Origin: Cytophagales bacterium
Lineage (GTDB): Bacteria > Bacteroidota > Bacteroidia > Cytophagales > UBA9547
Assembly (NCBI GenBank): GCA_013297755.1
Contig: JAAFIH010000002.1
Coordinates: forward strand, 1 to 64,000
Reading direction: 5' to 3'
Length of the DNA: 64,000 bases
Positions 8,494 through 36,461 of this stretch are shown piece by piece. A program made the translations under genes and the position numbers. The first letter of the stretch is position 1, and the number at the start of each line of letters is the position of its first letter. The notes below the pieces were generated by a model. The model did no database searches. It was not told the origin of the DNA and saw only the letters and a list, made by a program, of their open reading frames with translations.

Positions 8494-9543
8494 TTATTCT
8501 AATATAAATGGATAATTTGGTTCTGCATACACATCATTATATGCATCGCTAGCTTCTGGGAAAGGCGAATTTTCAGCAAAATCCACACTTTCTTGTACCT
8601 GCACTTTTATTTTTTCGTCTATTTGTTCCAATTCAGCTTCAGTAGCGTATTTTTTAGATAAAATAGTTTCTTTCACTTGTTCAATGGGGTCTTGAGCTTT
8701 GTAAGAATCAAGCTCTTCTTTAGACCTGTATTTGGCAGGATCCGACATAGAGTGTCCTCTATATCTATATGTTCTAAACTCTAATAAAGTAGGTCCATCG
8801 CCACTTCTAGCACGCTCTGCTGCTCTAGCTACTGCTACATGCACATCTTCACAACGCATACCATCCACTGCCTCTGATGGTATATCATAGGATTCTCCAA
8901 GGGTATATAAATCCCTTACGTTGGATGTACGAGCTACAGAAGTACCCATAGCGTAACCATTGTTTTCGATAACAAATATGACAGGCAATTTCCATAACAT
9001 AGCCATATTCAATGTTTCATGAAAAGCTCCCTGACGCACTGCACCATCGCCCATGTAGCATACACACAAATTGCCAGTATTGTTGTATTTTTCGGCAAAT
9101 GCAATACCTGCACCCAGTGGAATTTGTCCACCTACAATACCATGACCACCCATAAATCCAACTTCTTTATCAAAAATGTGCATAGAACCACCTTTGCCTT
9201 TTGATATTCCAGTAGATTTGGCAAATAATTCGGCCATTATAGGATTAGGATGTGTACCTAGAGCTAAAGGAATTGCATGATCTCTATAAGAAGTCAAATA
9301 CTTATCTCCTTTTTTTAATGCAGATACTACACCAGATCCACAGGCTTCTTGTCCTATATATAAATGACAAAATCCTTTAATTTTTTGTTGACCATACAAC
9401 TGACCAGCTTTTTCTTCAAATTTTCGCATCAAGACCATAGATTCATACCAAAACATATATGTTTCTTTTCCAAAGTCTAATTTTATTTCTGCTTTTGGGT
9501 GTTTGCTACTCATTTTTTTTGCTTCTTTCACTTGTGTTGCCAT
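8494..9543 (-). CDS. pdhA: Pyruvate dehydrogenase E1 component, alpha subunit
   Basis: This is the thiamine-diphosphate-binding half of the E1 heterotetramer, which decarboxylates pyruvate to feed acetyl-CoA synthesis. The ThDP motif runs from GDGAVRQGAF to IENNGYAMGTS, and the loop YRYRGHSMSDP matches the conserved phosphorylation-loop region. Length is normal at 349 residues from the ATG at 9543; the frame extends 12 codons further to a TTG, which I consider unlikely. The E1 beta and E2 genes are not adjacent. The E3 gene (lpd) lies at 28.9 kb. Confidence 0.94.
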   Translation of the reverse strand: MATQVKEAKKMSSKHPKAEIKLDFGKETYMFWYESMVLMRKFEEKAGQLYGQQKIKGFCHLYIGQEACGSGVVSALKKGDKYLTSYRDHAIPLALGTHPNPIMAELFAKSTGISKGKGGSMHIFDKEVGFMGGHGIVGGQIPLGAGIAFAEKYNNTGNLCVCYMGDGAVRQGAFHETLNMAMLWKLPVIFVIENNGYAMGTSVARTSNVRDLYTLGESYDIPSEAVDGMRCEDVHVAVARAAERARSGDGPTLLEFRTYRYRGHSMSDPAKYRSKEELDSYKAQDPIEQVKETILSKKYATEAELEQIDEKIKVQVQESVDFAENSPFPEASDAYNDVYAEPNYPFILE

Positions 9544-9692
9544 AAAGTTTTTTGTATTTTTTATAGTTTCATTTTGCAATATTATAACAATTCTTATAAT
9601 TATTAAAAATTATAGTTGTTTTTTAGCTATAAATTATCAACAAACATTAAAATTTGTATGAAAATCAATTTTTTAAACGGTTTTCTTTTTTA

Positions 9693-9983
9693 TTATTCTA
9701 TCACTTTGGGTACTCTAATGTAATCAGAATCTTTTTTGGGTGCATTGATAAGGGCTTTTTTGTGAGCAAGATGTGTATGTGGTATGTCTTCTCTAAAAAT
9801 ATTTAACTCAGCACTCATGTGAATCAATGGTTCAACATTATCTGTATTTACTTCATTGAGTTGCTCCATCCACCCTAGTATTTTGTCAAGACCATTTACC
9901 AATTCTTGTTTTTCAGAATCAGAAAATTCTAATCTCGAGAGGTGAGCTATTTTTTCAACAGTTTTAATATCTATATGTGTCAT
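9693..9983 (-). CDS. gatC: Glutamyl/aspartyl-tRNA amidotransferase subunit C
   Basis: A 96-residue protein with the typical GatC pattern: an N-terminal IAHLSRLEFSDSE segment, a central stretch around EQLNEVNTDNVEPL, and a C-terminal PKKDSDYIRVPKVIE. GatC stabilises GatAB, which converts Glu-tRNA(Gln) or Asp-tRNA(Asn) to the amide form. It follows the MerR-type regulator by 9 bases and is probably co-transcribed with it. The gatA and gatB genes are not in the window. Confidence 0.93.
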   Translation of the reverse strand: MTHIDIKTVEKIAHLSRLEFSDSEKQELVNGLDKILGWMEQLNEVNTDNVEPLIHMSAELNIFREDIPHTHLAHKKALINAPKKDSDYIRVPKVIE

Positions 9984-30411: not shown

Positions 30412-31137
30412 CTAAAAGTCTAGTTTTTGAAGTTCATTATTAGCTTGTTTTTTTATGTTTTCGATTTTTGAGTCAATCTTTTGATTTTTAGAGGTAGCAT
30501 ATTTTTTTGCTTCATTGTATTCATAAAGTGCCAATTTATATTTTGCTTGAATCGTCCTAATATCGCCTCTTAATTCATAAACTTCTGCATATTTATCGTC
30601 AAAATGGAGGGCTTCTGTGGTTTCTCTAAAAGCATTAAAATAATTTTCTGATTGGTAATAATTGAGTGCTTTCTGATAATGCTCTTTGGCAGCAAGATGA
30701 TTCATGTATTTGCCAAAAAGTGTGGCTCCCGAACCAATAATAATAAGTATAGTAAATGCTATAATGTAATAAAAAGTATTTGATTCTTTTTTTTGTGGAG
30801 CAAAAGAATCTTTAAAAAACTTACCTTGATTGGAATAGTCGCCAGAGCTAAAATCGGGTTCTATCTTTATTTCACTGTAAGATTTGTATTGTGATGTATT
30901 TTCGTTAAACGTCTGATTAGCAACATTTTGTGCATCTAATTTTTGGTTGTACAGGAATCTTTTGTCTCCATCACTCAATACTTGATAGGCTTCATTGATA
31001 ATTTTAAATTTCTCTTCGGCTTGTTTGTTGTTGTTATTTTTGTCAGGATGATAGGTAAGAGCTAATTTTTTGAAAGATTCTTTTATTTCTTTAGCAGTTG
31101 CATTTCTTTTGATACCTAAAACGGAATAATAATTCAT
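30412..31137 (-). CDS. J-domain membrane protein with C-terminal TPR
   Basis: A 241-residue protein. Residues 1-65 form a canonical J domain with HPD at 30-32, so it should stimulate an Hsp70 partner. A polar linker, a single transmembrane helix at about 126-146 and a C-terminal TPR-like segment ([20 protein letters not shown]) follow. The topology puts the J domain in the cytoplasm and the TPR in the periplasm. It is the last gene of a minus-strand run after the four coiled-coil paralogues (46-base gap), so it may be co-expressed with them. No zinc-finger or substrate-binding domain of DnaJ is present. Confidence 0.85.
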
Positions 31138-31182: not shown

Positions 31183-31611
31183 CTACAAAATGGCGGCATT
31201 ATCAAATATTTTTTTCAAATCTGGATGATTCATTGAATATTCTTTGAGTGCTACAACCAAAGTGTTATATTTTCTTTTTTCTGTTTCAATCTCTTCTTTT
31301 ATGGGAGCATTGGCCAACCTTCTGTCCCACCACATATAAGCTACAGAACCCAAAACACCAGCCACCAACGTAACTATCAAAGCCGAAATAAGGTTTAATT
31401 GGTTTTGAATACCCTCAAATTTGGAATCTATGGCTTCAAATTTCTTATCAATGGCTTGAAATCTGTAGTCTAAAGATTTAAAACCCTCCTCCATTTTGAT
31501 TTCTAATCTTATCAATCGTTCTTTATCATCTTGGGTAAATGGAATTTGAGTTGCATTTATTTGATGAAGGATTAAAAAATTAATTATTAGTAATAAAATT
31601 TTATTTTTCAT
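31183..31611 (-). CDS. Coiled-coil membrane paralogue 1 of 4 (three heptads)
   Basis: A 142-residue protein with a signal peptide ending near NAT, an acidic segment (IPFTQDDKERLIRLEIKMEE), three 7-residue units (RFQAIDK, KFEAIDS, KFEGIQN) forming a coiled coil, a transmembrane helix (LISALIVTLVAGVLGSVAYM), then WWDRR and a charged helical tail. The last 79 residues are identical to the other three copies. If the signal is cleaved, the coiled coil is periplasmic and the tail cytoplasmic. Function unknown; no domain recognised. Confidence 0.8.
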   Translation of the reverse strand: MKNKILLLIINFLILHQINATQIPFTQDDKERLIRLEIKMEEGFKSLDYRFQAIDKKFEAIDSKFEGIQNQLNLISALIVTLVAGVLGSVAYMWWDRRLANAPIKEEIETEKRKYNTLVVALKEYSMNHPDLKKIFDNAAIL

Positions 31612-31646
31612 TTGAATATTATTAAGAGTTAAAGATAGTAACTGTA

Positions 31647-32117
31647 CTACAAAATGGCGGCATTATCAAATATTTTTTTCAAGTCTGGATGATTCATTGA
31701 ATATTCTTTGAGAGCTACAACCAAAGTATTATATTTTCTTTTTTCAGTTTCAATCTCTTCTTTTATGGGAGCATTGGCCAACCTTCTATCCCACCACATA
31801 TAAGCCACAGAACCCAAAACACCAGCCACCAACGTAACTATCAAAGCCGAAATAAGGTTTAATTGGTTTTGAATACCCTCAAATTTGGAATCTATGGCTT
31901 CAAATTTTGAATTAATGGCTTCAAACTTTGTGTCCAATGCTTCAAATTTCTTATCAATGGCTTGAAATCTGTAGTCTAAAGATTTAAAACCCTCCTCCAT
32001 TTTGATTTCTAATCTTATCAATCGTTCTTTATCATCTTGGGTAAATGGAATTTGAGTTGCATTTACTTGTTGAAGGATTAAAAAATTAATTATTAGTAAT
32101 AAAATTTTATTTTTCAT
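31647..32117 (-). CDS. Coiled-coil membrane paralogue 2 of 4 (five heptads)
   Basis: A 156-residue protein built like the neighbouring copies but with the longest coiled coil: RFQAIDK, KFEALDT, KFEAINS, KFEAIDS, KFEGIQN. It is exactly 14 residues longer than copy 1, meaning two extra heptads. The signal peptide and the first 25 residues nearly match copies 1 and 4, and the C-terminal 79 residues are identical. The 35-base gap to copy 1 is itself conserved between copies, so the duplication unit includes spacer DNA. Confidence 0.8.
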   Translation of the reverse strand: MKNKILLLIINFLILQQVNATQIPFTQDDKERLIRLEIKMEEGFKSLDYRFQAIDKKFEALDTKFEAINSKFEAIDSKFEGIQNQLNLISALIVTLVAGVLGSVAYMWWDRRLANAPIKEEIETEKRKYNTLVVALKEYSMNHPDLKKIFDNAAIL

Positions 32118-32152
32118 TTGAACATTATTAAGAGCTAAAGATAGTAACTTTA

Positions 32153-32560
32153 CTACAAAATGGCGGCATTATCAAATATTTTTTTCAAATCTGGATGATT
32201 CATTGAATATTCTTTGAGTGCCACAACCAAAGTGTTATATTTTCTTTTTTCGGTTTCAATCTCTTCTTTTATAGGAGCGTTGGCCAACCTTCTATCCCAC
32301 CACATATAAGCCACAGAACCCAAAACACCAGCCACCAACGTAACTATCAAAGCCGAAATAAGGTTTAATTGGTTTTGAATACCCTCAAATTTTGCGTTAA
32401 TGGCATCAAATTTTGCATCAATGGCTTTAAAACCTTCTTCTACTTTTGATTCAAGTCTGATTATTCTATCTCTGTCTTCTAAAGTATATGGAATTTCTTT
32501 GGTTTCTGCCACAGATATAAAACTTAAAAAAAGTATAAAAATGAGTATTAAATTTTTCAT
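32153..32560 (-). CDS. Coiled-coil membrane paralogue 3 of 4 (divergent N-terminus)
   Basis: A 135-residue protein from the preferred ATG 32560, which begins a good signal peptide (MKNLILIFILFLSF, cleavage near SVAE); a longer frame to ATG 32590 would spoil it. Its N-terminal half differs clearly from the other copies (IPYTLEDRDRIIRLESKVEE; heptads GFKAIDA, KFDAINA, KFEGIQN), but its last 79 residues are identical to theirs. This mosaic suggests recombination or gene conversion at the 3' part. Function unknown. Confidence 0.8.
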   Translation of the reverse strand: MKNLILIFILFLSFISVAETKEIPYTLEDRDRIIRLESKVEEGFKAIDAKFDAINAKFEGIQNQLNLISALIVTLVAGVLGSVAYMWWDRRLANAPIKEEIETEKRKYNTLVVALKEYSMNHPDLKKIFDNAAIL

Positions 32561-32595
32561 TAAAATATTATTAAAAACTAAAGTTAGCATTTTTA

Positions 32596-33045
32596 CTACA
32601 AAATAGCAGCATTATCAAATATTTTTTTCAAATCTGGATGATTCATTGAATATTCTTTGAGTGCCACAACCAAAGTGTTATATTTTCTTTTTTCGGTTTC
32701 TATCTCTTCTTTTATAGGAGCATTGGCCAACCTTCTGTCCCACCACATATAAGCCACAGAACCCAAAACACCAGCCACCAACGTAACTATCAAAGCCGAA
32801 ATAAGGTTTAATTGGTTTTGAATACCCTCAAATTTGGAATCTATGGCTTCAAATTTTGTATCCAATGCTTCAAATTTCTTATCAATAGCTTGAAATCTGT
32901 AGTCTAAAGATTTAAAACCCTCCTCCATTTTGATTTCTAATCTTATCAATCGTTCTTTATCATCTTGGGTAAATGGAATTTGAATTGCATTTACTTGATG
33001 TAAGAATATGAAATTAATCAAAATAAATATTAGTAATACTCTCAT
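32596..33045 (-). CDS. Coiled-coil membrane paralogue 4 of 4 (four heptads)
   Basis: A 149-residue protein with the same layout: a signal peptide, an acidic segment, four heptads (RFQAIDK, KFEALDT, KFEAIDS, KFEGIQN), a transmembrane helix and the shared 79-residue C-terminus. It is first in the paralogue series and starts only 14 bases after the sulfite/nitrite reductase stop codon, so the array is probably expressed from the reductase promoter, at least in part. Confidence 0.8.
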   Translation of the reverse strand: MRVLLIFILINFIFLHQVNAIQIPFTQDDKERLIRLEIKMEEGFKSLDYRFQAIDKKFEALDTKFEAIDSKFEGIQNQLNLISALIVTLVAGVLGSVAYMWWDRRLANAPIKEEIETEKRKYNTLVVALKEYSMNHPDLKKIFDNAAIL

Positions 33046-33059
33046 AATGATTACTTATT

Positions 33060-35159
33060 TTATACGAATGCACTTAATTGAATATTCTTACGAAATTCAA
33101 AAGAGTTTTGTAAGAACTTTGTTGCTTTTGATAAATATTCTGATGCAAATGTTTGAGTTGGTTCGTTTTTATTGATTGCCAAAACCATTTCTTTAAAAGT
33201 AGTTTCAAATACAAATTCGCCAGTTTCTACAAAGTTTTTATCAAAATCTCCGATTATGCCATGTTGTGAGTTTGTAGCTATTTCTTTGCTCGTAAGCAAT
33301 GCTTTGGCTGTAGATACAAATACTGCATAAGAATGATAAATACTATCTGCAAATAAATTATTTTGGTAAGTTTTATTAGCTTTAGCTAATTTGTCTTCTG
33401 TTTCTAGTAATAAAGTTTGCACCAAATCAATCATTACTCCAGCACATTCGCCCACACCAACTTCTGTACTAAAAAGTTCTGCATGTCCCCAATCTATAAA
33501 CATATCTTGGGTAGGGTTTTTGGCTTCTGCAAAAGGTTTTAATAATTGATAAAAATAATTTTTACTTTGTCTTAGGTAATAATCATTAAAATATTCGCCT
33601 TCATTTCCATTGTTTTCGTAGTCATTGAAAATACATCTAAGAGCATCTGGCATTCGTTTTGTTGGCAATTTTATGATTTTTTCTCCCACTGTACCAGCTC
33701 CATCGCCAAGCAATCCACCACCAAGTAAAAGTTGCATAGCTGGCATAACCAATTCGCCAGATTTTATCGAACTGCCATGCAATCCAATATTGGCCATGCC
33801 ATGTTGGCCACAAGAGTTCATGCAACCACTAATTTTGATTTTTATATCATTATTATAAATTAAATCTCTAAATTCAGTTTTCATCATATCCTCGAGCACG
33901 TGAGTAATGCCATAACTCGAAGCAATTCCTAAATTGCAAGTGTCTGTGCCTGGGCATGTTGTAATATCAGCTGTACTATCAAAACCTGGCTCCTCAAAAC
34001 CAATGTCGTGAAGTTTATTAAAAACATAAGCTAAGCCTTCGGTGGCTATGAATTTAATCATAAGTCCTTGATTTACAGTTATCCTTATGTCATCGGCAGC
34101 TACCTCTTCTACAATTTCTGCAAATTTCCTAGCTATTTCGGTTGGTATATTTCCAATTCTTACTTTTATAAAAACTGCATTAGTATTTTTTTGCTTTTGA
34201 GCATATACATTTGTTTGTTTCCATTCTTCAAACAATAGTTTGTCTTTTGGTTCAACAATAGGTAGTTGTTTTGTATTAAAATTACTTCCTAGTGGATATT
34301 CGTTTTCATCAATAGGAAAGGTTTTTGATTTTAGTGCTAATTGTTCTTCGGCTACCAATCGCATGAACTCATCTAAGCCAATCTCAGAAATTAAGTATTT
34401 CATTCTGGCTTTGTGTCTTCGGGTGCGTTCGCCATATCTATCAAAAACACGAATTACGGCTTCTGAAAAAGGAATCATTAAATCAATGGGTAAAAATTCG
34501 TGTGCAACTTGAGCCAAAAACGGTTGTGCTCCTAAGCCACCACCAATCATAACTTTAAATCCACGAACTCCATTTTGAATTTTGGCTATAAAACCTAAGT
34601 CATGAATGTAAGAAAATGCAGTATCTTTATCGGAACTTGAAAACGAAACTTTAAACTTACGACCCATATCTTGGCATATAGGATTGCGTAGAAAATAGGC
34701 AAAAAATGCGTGAGTATAAGGTGTTACATCAAATGGCTCATCCATATCTATACCTGCTGTGGGGGAGGCTGTTACGTTGCGAACTGCATTGCCACAGGCT
34801 TCTCTTAAAGTAATATTTTGGGTTTCTAAATCATTCCATACACTTGGGGTGTCTTCAAGTTTTACATAATGAATTTGTATGTCTTGGCGTGTTGTCAAAT
34901 GCAAAACTCCAGTAGAATAGGTATCTGAAACATCACAAATTTTTTGTAATTGTGCTACTGTAACTTTGCCATAAGGGAGTTTTATGCGTATCATCTGAAC
35001 ACCTTGTTGGCGTTGCCCATACACGCCACGTGTCAATCTAAAAGCACGAAAACGCTCATCTGCTATCTCTCCAGCTCTAAATTTGGAGATTTTTGTGTCC
35101 AATTCTAAAATGTCTTCTTGTGCAAGTGGGTTGATTTCGGGATTGATAATAACTGACAT
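33060..35159 (-). CDS. Sulfite/nitrite reductase hemoprotein with an extra C-terminal helical domain
   Basis: A 699-residue enzyme with the two-fold repeat of siroheme reductases. The 4Fe-4S/siroheme cysteines are intact: C402-x5-C408 (TCPGTDTCNLG) and C446-x3-C450 (SGCMNSCGQHG). Basic substrate-binding segments such as GVLHLTTRQDIQ are present. The family core normally ends near residue 560; here about 125 more residues (575-699) form a helical domain with ADSIYHSYAVFVSTAKALL, which resembles HEPN-type helical bundles. Sulfite versus nitrite specificity is not decided. The four paralogues follow 14 bases downstream. Confidence 0.9.
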   Translation of the reverse strand: MSVIINPEINPLAQEDILELDTKISKFRAGEIADERFRAFRLTRGVYGQRQQGVQMIRIKLPYGKVTVAQLQKICDVSDTYSTGVLHLTTRQDIQIHYVKLEDTPSVWNDLETQNITLREACGNAVRNVTASPTAGIDMDEPFDVTPYTHAFFAYFLRNPICQDMGRKFKVSFSSSDKDTAFSYIHDLGFIAKIQNGVRGFKVMIGGGLGAQPFLAQVAHEFLPIDLMIPFSEAVIRVFDRYGERTRRHKARMKYLISEIGLDEFMRLVAEEQLALKSKTFPIDENEYPLGSNFNTKQLPIVEPKDKLLFEEWKQTNVYAQKQKNTNAVFIKVRIGNIPTEIARKFAEIVEEVAADDIRITVNQGLMIKFIATEGLAYVFNKLHDIGFEEPGFDSTADITTCPGTDTCNLGIASSYGITHVLEDMMKTEFRDLIYNNDIKIKISGCMNSCGQHGMANIGLHGSSIKSGELVMPAMQLLLGGGLLGDGAGTVGEKIIKLPTKRMPDALRCIFNDYENNGNEGEYFNDYYLRQSKNYFYQLLKPFAEAKNPTQDMFIDWGHAELFSTEVGVGECAGVMIDLVQTLLLETEDKLAKANKTYQNNLFADSIYHSYAVFVSTAKALLTSKEIATNSQHGIIGDFDKNFVETGEFVFETTFKEMVLAINKNEPTQTFASEYLSKATKFLQNSFEFRKNIQLSAFV

Positions 35160-35576: not shown

Positions 35577-35783
35577 CTAACTTTTTTCTTTTTCTAATTT
35601 TTTTAATTGTATTTCAAGGCGATACAATAAAATAAATGTAGCTATTAGTATTAAAAAAACCACTGCCAATACAACATAAATTTTGCCTTCGGCCCTAAAT
35701 TTGTCTGCCATTTCTACTTCTTGGGCAAAACAATTAAGATTTAAAAGTAATAAAGCTACTAAATGTACTATTATTTTATTCAT
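35577..35783 (-). CDS. CcmD-like small membrane protein
   Basis: A 68-residue protein with a signal-like first helix ending in CFAQ, the segment ADKFRAEGKIYVVLAVVFLI (second helix) and a basic coiled tail (RLEIQLKKLEKEKS). This is the Bacteroidota CcmD-like pattern. CcmD stabilises the heme-handling complex with CcmC. The start overlaps the end of the ccmC gene by 8 bases, which strongly supports the pairing. Confidence 0.85.
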   Translation of the reverse strand: MNKIIVHLVALLLLNLNCFAQEVEMADKFRAEGKIYVVLAVVFLILIATFILLYRLEIQLKKLEKEKS

Positions 35784-36435
35784 TATTTTTTTGTTCTATA
35801 ATTTTAATTCGTGCAATGACTTGACTTATCCAAGTACCCAATAATATAAACGCTATCACAGATGGATAAAAAACCAATCTCATGTTATTGTCCAAATCGT
35901 AAGAATTAAACCCAGGATTACCACCATTTCCAGGATGAAGCGAATCTACCAATCGAGGCAATACAAAAATCAAAGGAATAAAAATCATGTAAGAAAAAAT
36001 GTTATAAACTGCAGATATTTTAGCCCGTTGATAAATATCTGTAAACGAACTTCGTAATACCAAATAAGCAAAATATATCAACATACCAATAGCTGCTGCA
36101 TTAAGTTTGGGATCGTTTGTCCAAAAGCTGCCCCAAGTAAATTTAGCCCAAATAGAACCCGTTAGAATGCCTAATACACCATAAAAAATCCCTATTTGTG
36201 CAAAAGATATAGAATAAATATCATTTTTTGTTTCGTTAGTCTTGAGATATTTAATTGCATATATCATCGAAACAAGCAGTAAAACTACCATTCCAAACCA
36301 AAGTGGCACATGATAATAGAGATTGCGTACAGTTTCATTCAAAATAGGTAAACTTGGTACAGACGAAATTAATCCTAAAGGTATTATCGTTAAAACGAGT
36401 AAGATTGTAAAATATTTCCAAAAAGGTAAAATCAT
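35776..36435 (-). CDS. CcmC/CcsA-family heme exporter for cytochrome c maturation
   Basis: A 219-residue protein with six hydrophobic helices and the tryptophan-rich heme-binding region GSIWAKFTWGSFWTNDPK, flanked by helices with conserved histidines (for example YYHVPLW). It presents heme for covalent attachment to cytochrome c. ATG 36435 is chosen over an upstream TTG because a perfect -7 box (36454-36461) overlaps that TTG. The CcmD-like gene overlaps its 3' end; ccmA, ccmB, ccmE and ccmF are not in the window. Confidence 0.9.
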   Translation of the reverse strand: MILPFWKYFTILLVLTIIPLGLISSVPSLPILNETVRNLYYHVPLWFGMVVLLLVSMIYAIKYLKTNETKNDIYSISFAQIGIFYGVLGILTGSIWAKFTWGSFWTNDPKLNAAAIGMLIYFAYLVLRSSFTDIYQRAKISAVYNIFSYMIFIPLIFVLPRLVDSLHPGNGGNPGFNSYDLDNNMRLVFYPSVIAFILLGTWISQVIARIKIIEQKNNE

Positions 36436-36453
36436 ATATATATGAATATGTTG

Positions 36454-36461
36454 CAAATGTA
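36454..36461 (-). promoter_or_regulatory. Candidate -7 box TACATTTG for ccmC-ccmD
   Basis: An exact TAnnTTTG match on the minus strand, 18 bases before ATG 36435. It overlaps the TTG that opens the longest reading frame, so it also decides the start. Confidence 0.5.

Follow-up and report, generated by a model that had tools for sequence, protein, structure and literature searches.

Four tandem genes in the window, as we call the whole 64-kb stretch of DNA analysed here, encode predicted single-pass membrane proteins that differ in the length of a heptad stalk and share an identical 79-residue C-terminus. Comparisons of these genes with each other and with related arrays indicate that the constant module is held by strong purifying selection, and that recombination is needed beyond selection for one of the four genes (gene C) and for a second array of the same genome (C35). 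We consider this evolutionary part of the explanation, drawn from codon-level comparisons, very probable. The part concerning assembly and role, in which proteins with a shared module would co-assemble and act as an envelope tether or sensor, is put forward tentatively and is rather doubtful. The explanation as a whole, joining a selected and converted module to heptad-stepped stalks, co-assembly and an envelope role, is the one toward which we lean.

The window array and its constant module

The four genes run head to tail on the minus strand in the order D, C, B, A, from position 33045 down to 31183. Gene D (32596..33045), the first of the array, encodes 149 residues, 75 of which precede a constant 74-residue part; the corresponding values are 135 and 61 for gene C (32153..32560), the mosaic gene described below, 156 and 82 for gene B (31647..32117), and 142 and 68 for gene A (31183..31611), the last of the array. 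The start of gene C was set at 32560, from where its N-terminus aligns with the other copies, and not at 32590 as in the list of open reading frames. All spacers within the array are 35 nt long and mutually alike: the spacer upstream of C (32561..32595, minus strand), which is of the window type, matches those upstream of B and A at 26/35 and 25/35 positions, respectively, and the latter two match each other at 32/35. A 300-nt repeat is present in four copies in the window, with 86-97% identity to the reference copy, and this identity, together with three further arrays of the family in the genome, shows that the repeat array is not a product of chance.

On the upstream side, a sulfite/nitrite reductase gene (33060-35159) is followed 14 nt later by gene D; on the downstream side, 45 nt separate the end of gene A from a DnaJ-domain gene (30412-31137). 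Both flanking genes are on the same strand as the array. The C-terminal part of the reductase (residues 581-654) gave a HEPN match of 20.9 bits against a cut-off of 22, the DnaJ-domain protein carries a hydrophobic segment, and CcmD-type and cytochrome c assembly genes (35577-36456) lie upstream of the reductase gene on the same strand. No tRNA was found within the 64-kb window. When 468 neighbouring ORFs from 98 loci (mostly with a few kb of flank) were clustered, no cluster was present in more than 6 loci, and thus the neighbours give no hint of a pathway.

As the preliminary description had stated, the last 79 residues of A, B, C and D are identical, with 0 amino-acid differences in 6/6 pairs. 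This module, comprising the end of the stalk, the transmembrane (TM) helix, WDRR and the tail, occupies with its stop codon 32596..32835 in D, 32153..32392 in C, 31647..31886 in B and 31183..31422 in A, all on the minus strand. The nucleotide differences within it (A-B 6, A-C 6, A-D 7, B-C 7, B-D 10 and C-D 5) are all synonymous and are set against about 49 synonymous sites; among the 74 codons after the stalk, 12 are synonymously polymorphic and 0 non-synonymously. The earlier claim that many synonymous sites differ is fair, but the divergence is modest (5-10 differences per pair, dS 0.12-0.26). Its companion, that the identity does not merely reflect a very recent copy, stands, as the synonymous divergence of the module is not near zero. 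The variation ascribed to the N-termini applies to gene C, whose N-terminal half is separated from those of A, B and D by a dN of 0.43-0.44 and a dS of 1.8 to saturated, but hardly to A, B and D themselves, which differ chiefly in heptad number and signal peptide (N-terminal part, pairwise dS 0.20-0.40 and dN 0.03-0.13).

Selection and recombination within and between arrays

The source genome contains 23 family matches (E up to 1e-6), 21 of which lie in four arrays: the window array with 4 genes, C35 with 5, C1 with 4 and C52 with 8. Single genes are located on C34 and C19. The tail types differ between arrays, and the tail is identical within the window array and within C35; it carries 1 non-synonymous polymorphic codon in C1 and 9 in C52 (genes 2-8). 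Counted over the module, the non-synonymous and synonymous polymorphic codons number 0/12 in the window array, 0/8 in C35 and 1/15 in C1, respectively, and the module of C52 (genes 2-8) is not constant, with 18 synonymous and 9 non-synonymous polymorphic codons.

In C35 (L024:1645-2557), genes 4 and 5 have identical N-parts and modules that differ at 2 silent sites, and the module of gene 5 is nearly as close to that of gene 2 (3 sites), a further hint of recombination. The eight genes of C52 (L026:4557-9942) are separated by spacers of about 160 nt. Gene 1 of this array (9556-9942) has a deviating tail, in which the family tail is lost after WDRKTFMN, and two small ORFs (8846-9429) lie between genes 1 and 2; the second of these is a candidate RelE/ParE-type toxin.

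Such arrays could arise if copies were wrongly multiplied or merged during assembly. C35 starts 358 bases into its contig, C52 lies on a contig of 12,015 bases, and the N-parts of C35 genes 4 and 5 are identical, as might be expected of an artefact. The window array, however, is flanked by unique genes in the interior of a long contig, and its copies can be told apart by their silent differences and stalk lengths, which merging would erase. We regard an assembly artefact as extremely improbable.

Each gene was split at the module start (Q.Q..) into an N-part and the module, and codons were permuted 5000 times. In the window array, pS fell from 0.440 in the N-part to 0.147 in the module, a difference reached in 0/5000 permutations. 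The corresponding values were 0.389 and 0.080 in C35 (0/5000 as large), and 0.386 and 0.188 in a two-gene array of G001, a genome of the same genus (99/5000). The two halves did not differ significantly in A, B and D taken without C (0.238 and 0.165, 741/5000) or in C1 (0.214 and 0.189, 1739/5000), and no drop was seen in C52 (0.129 and 0.168, 3903/5000). The silent drop in the window array rests on gene C. For pN, the N-part exceeded the module in the window, C35, C1 and G001 arrays (0/5000 permutations each), but not in C52 (2451/5000).

Modules from different arrays are separated by a high to saturated dS (means of at least 1.5), indicating that the low dS within arrays is not due to a constraint on silent sites. 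A codon model fitted to 15 modules gave an omega of 0.0265. Separate values within arrays (0.013) and between arrays (0.029) fitted no better (p=0.163, with saturated between-array branches weakening the test), and a stronger constraint within arrays than between was set aside as unsupported.

Whole-gene tandem duplication might have produced these arrays with no conversion at all, if the module was kept by purifying selection and the N-part changed faster. Duplication suffices for A/B/D, C1 and C52, where the halves are similar in silent divergence, and an omega of about 0.03 is enough to keep the module protein constant. However, it predicts even silent divergence along the gene, whereas a drop of about three-fold is observed in the window array when C is included and one of about five-fold in C35, and it is contradicted by the mosaic gene C. 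Duplication without conversion is distinctly unlikely. Under our preferred reading of selection combined with recombination, strong purifying selection suffices for A, B and D, since their halves are not significantly different in synonymous rate, and recombination beyond selection is probably also needed for the G001 pair. The preliminary description had invoked selection or repeated conversion; both act (omega about 0.03; conversion in C), but A, B and D need only the former.

Strict constancy of the tail and the regional drop are a trait of this genus and not of the stalk family, because the tails of three arrays (13 genes) in one Nitrospirota genome are alike but not identical and these arrays show no consistent silent-rate drop in the 3' part (median within-array dS, N-part against C-part: 0.47 against 0.37, 0.49 against 0.56 and 0.54 against 0.37).

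Gene C itself is a mosaic of a C35-like 5' half and the array's own 3' half. In the ten-codon blocks of codons 11-40, it matches gene 4 of C35 (C35_4) at 24, 26 and 25 of 30 nucleotides and gene B at 9, 20 and 18 of 30; in codons 41-45, the matches are 15/15 and 13/15, respectively. C35_2 is about as near to gene C as C35_4, where alignable. Codons 1-10 favour neither source (21/30 against 20/30), codons 46-59 lean toward the window genes, and from codon 60 the gene matches A, B and D at 28-30 of 30 nucleotides and C35_4 at 16-21 of 30 (in the last block, 19-21/21 and 16/21). Judging from the block identities and dN, the C35-like part is assigned to codons 11-45 (32426..32530, minus strand). 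The dN of the N-part is 0.118 to C35_4, as compared with 0.43-0.44 to A, B and D, and its dS of 0.59 to C35_4 implies that the source was a relative of C35 and not a present gene, or that the event is old. In the module tree, the four window genes were grouped 100/100, and placement of C with C35 was rejected (AU 8e-5); in the N-part trees, they were grouped in 0/200 bootstraps. A single clade of the four window N-parts was not rejected by the AU test (p=0.109), and forcing C and all of C35 into one N-part clade cost likelihood and was likewise not rejected (p=0.221). In C and in C35, homologous recombination, by gene conversion or unequal crossing over, has joined a diverged 5' half to the 3' half belonging to the array, and the breakpoint in gene C lies in or near the repetitive stalk.

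A gene of this kind could also belong to a repertoire diversified by recombination, in which variable 5' halves are swapped onto a fixed 3' module, as in surface-antigen variation. In gene C, a 5' half resembling that of C35 does stand between a spacer and a module of the window type, and the higher N-part pN in the window, C35, C1 and G001 arrays is consistent with such swapping. Nevertheless, the cap motif is conserved across phyla, the within-array N-part dN/dS is mostly below 1 (with two C1 pairs close to 0.7 or higher), and the predicted location of the stalk is periplasmic, not surface exposed. We consider a diversified repertoire unlikely, and retain selection on the module with recombination in C and C35.

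Architecture and distribution of the stalk family

The window proteins consist of a signal-peptide-like hydrophobic N-terminus, a cap, a heptad stalk, one strongly hydrophobic segment in each, WDRR directly thereafter, and a helical tail, with 48 residues from the W of WDRR to the C-terminal end. The cap motif of the family is P[FY]TxxDRDRxIRxE, represented in the window proteins by IP[FY]T and then D[RK][DE]R and R[LV]E. According to the positive-inside rule, basic residues directly after a helix point to the cytoplasmic side. Since basic residues stand just after the helix, the tail is predicted to be cytoplasmic, which suggests a type I topology with the stalk in the periplasm.

The stalk was assigned from the sequence to residues 38-75 of D (32821..32934; here also from the helix in a monomer model), 38-61 of C (32378..32449), 38-82 of B (31872..32006) and 38-68 of A (31408..31500), all on the minus strand. 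The model of D predicts one continuous helix over residues 27-135 (mean pLDDT 85.7, pTM 0.35), and as a predicted monomer it says little about assembly. The numbers of residues before the constant 74-residue part (C 61, A 68, D 75 and B 82) follow one-heptad steps, and the cap-to-WDR lengths are 59, 66, 73 and 80. These lengths are 49, 49, 56, 56, 63, 70 and 70 in C52 genes 2-8, 48, 59, 73, 73 and 77 in C35, and 52, 63, 70 and 84 in C1; steps of 11, the other regular coiled-coil period besides 7, are also present. Among 84 relatives, whose rows are related sequences, 43/84 cap-to-WDR lengths fall into one class modulo 7 (chi2/df 19.0), followed by modulo 11 (6.8), and the other moduli from 3 to 12 give 2.7 or less. 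The heptad steps support a coiled coil but do not by themselves support a ruler function, because slippage of a 21-nt repeat gives the same steps and the rows are related. The stalk gains and loses whole heptads, yielding the observed series before the module.

The proteins may form parallel oligomers through the stalk and TM helix, and because the TM helix and tail are common to the array, its members may mix in these oligomers. The heptad number would then determine how high each cap stands in the periplasm, giving caps at graded heights, while the tail would meet a common partner in the cytoplasm; a tether or sensor of the envelope would be the likely role. If array members co-assemble, they would provide a natural coiled-coil length series for testing stalk length against envelope spacing or signalling.

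In an alignment of 69 members, T26, D29, R32, E37, D103, R104 and P110 (gene D numbering) are invariant, and the four window proteins, themselves rows of this alignment, carry all seven. Two peptide patterns retrieved 226 stretches from the named genome collection, 197 of which encode relatives, and the best 80 of the 197 were kept. The labels of these 80 include Nitrospirae, Nitrospinota, Deltaproteobacteria, Candidatus Scalindua, Anammoxibacter and Zixiibacteriota, together with one Alphaproteobacteria-labelled genome and many Bacteroidetes; the labels may err because nearly all of the genomes are metagenome-assembled.

The distribution of the family is patchy. In the window's phylum, with at most 9 candidates scored per genome, at least 3/395 genomes have a match (E up to 1e-12), its own genome included; this phylum is probably Bacteroidota, since the genome carries a PorP/SprF gene, which is typical of that group. 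Matches are present in 4/10 genomes of the window's family (1e-6), again with its own, and in 16/148 in the phylum of G347, with G347 included. With gene D alone as the query, 6/59 relatives match at 1e-3, again with its own. The 12 genomes reached through loci have 1 to 31 matches each (E up to 0.001; highest 31, 22, 14 and 10), including some fragments or stalk-only matches. The copy number is highest in the Nitrospirae-titled genomes G347, G348 and G349 (L056, L110 and L055), with 22, 31 and 14 matches, respectively, and a further locus, L072, is titled Candidatus Magnetobacteriaceae. The 19/296 phylum genomes matching the first profile (A1) were not counted as members; their matches were mostly weak and on the stalk.

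In the same genus, G001 has 6 family matches, including the two-gene array with its own tail type, and G002 has 2. The flank of the sulfite reductase gene contains no family gene in the visible 3.9 kb of G002 or 368 bases of G001, nor does the flank of the DnaJ gene in G001 (5.5 kb); in G002, the contig ends there. Each of the two congeners has an orthologue of the DnaJ gene (68% and 59% identity), located away from the sulfite reductase gene. The congeners offer no clean empty site, as the two flanking genes are on different contigs with other neighbours. The preliminary description had taken absence from all close relatives as the mark of a recent local accident: no member was seen in the visible stretches beside the sulfite reductase gene, but both congeners carry members elsewhere.

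In keeping with the earlier remark that no named family was known for the array, all four window proteins score below every curated cut-off of Pfam and NCBIfam. Every Pfam row listed at E up to 0.001 for 26 related proteins, the 28 members examined less two window rows, was below its cut-off, as was every NCBIfam row listed for 10 of the 28 members. XhlA (PF10779) was the commonest Pfam match among the first 25 of 56 families listed (10/28 members at E up to 0.01), with a best score among the 26 relatives of 30.9 against a cut-off of 34.7. The four window proteins had no XhlA row at E up to 1; they scored 14.4-15.1 bits with LapA_dom (PF06305; gathering cut-off 28) and 16.3-19.3 bits with TIGR03643 (curated cut-off 66.55), and no cadherin row was among their Pfam rows at E up to 1. 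The PHROGs rows with E below 1e-4 (phrog_6701 and phrog_12015) are on the stalk and function-less. At E up to 0.1, 290 distinct PDB sequences matched; coils of influenza haemagglutinin HA2 dominate the best 60 of them, with a lowest E of 3.4e-4, and were taken for a generic coiled-coil resemblance, and a PDB fold search gave no match at E up to 10. There was no match in plasmids searched with gene D or in phages searched with a relative from G011, and none of the 22 pattern stretches from viral contigs was a relative, for a single-protein query that covers close relatives only. Among the titles and abstract openings searched, none describes the stalk family or such conversion in it.

Taken together, the invariant residues define a patchy membrane family that lacks an above-cut-off match in the Pfam copy used and occurs in genomes labelled as several phyla, with up to about 30 matches per genome. 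The mode of gene evolution is known, and the family has no curated name in the libraries searched. The arrays also provide a small bacterial case in which module selection and regional conversion are separable within one genome.

Comparison with known systems

Regional conversion is described for the clustered protocadherins of fugu: the 3' region next to the membrane is homogenised, the 5' regions vary, and the converted regions differ from one subcluster to another (PMC1852091). Like the genes of the window array, these fish genes lie in tandem and encode single-pass membrane proteins whose N-terminal parts vary, with homogenisation of the 3' region within a subcluster, but their products are vertebrate cadherin-repeat proteins, and in two of the clusters the members have their constant exons in common (PMC1852091). 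The likeness, drawn by analogy, is one of the mode of gene evolution and not of membership, and no sequence relation is suggested. The protocadherin-like drop in silent divergence toward the 3' end is seen in the window array, C35 and G001, and not in A/B/D, C1 or C52.

The Bdr proteins of Borrelia have their TM segment at the C-terminal end. This bacterial family of paralogues, for which no function is known, carries imperfect in-frame repeats in numbers that vary between strains (PMC3303823). They resemble the window genes by description only, as paralogues with in-frame repeats of varying number, and differ in being on cp32 prophage-like plasmids and in having another repeat (PMC3303823). 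The nearest known profile is XhlA, likewise a coiled coil followed by a TM helix, but its matches cover only the stalk and TM helix of the family, not the cap or tail.

Lpp, a lipoprotein, belongs to the outer membrane and cell wall and has neither a TM helix nor a cytoplasmic tail. As a coiled-coil envelope protein helping to set envelope spacing (PMC8824477, PMC5736177), it serves by analogy as a model for why stalk length could matter, and is not a relative. As a decidedly long shot, each array would encode stalks of stepwise length on one common TM helix and tail, kept matched by selection and conversion, and mixed oligomers would link caps standing at several periplasmic depths to a single readout in the cytoplasm, which would make the array a bacterial counterpart of the clustered protocadherins or a molecular ruler of the envelope.
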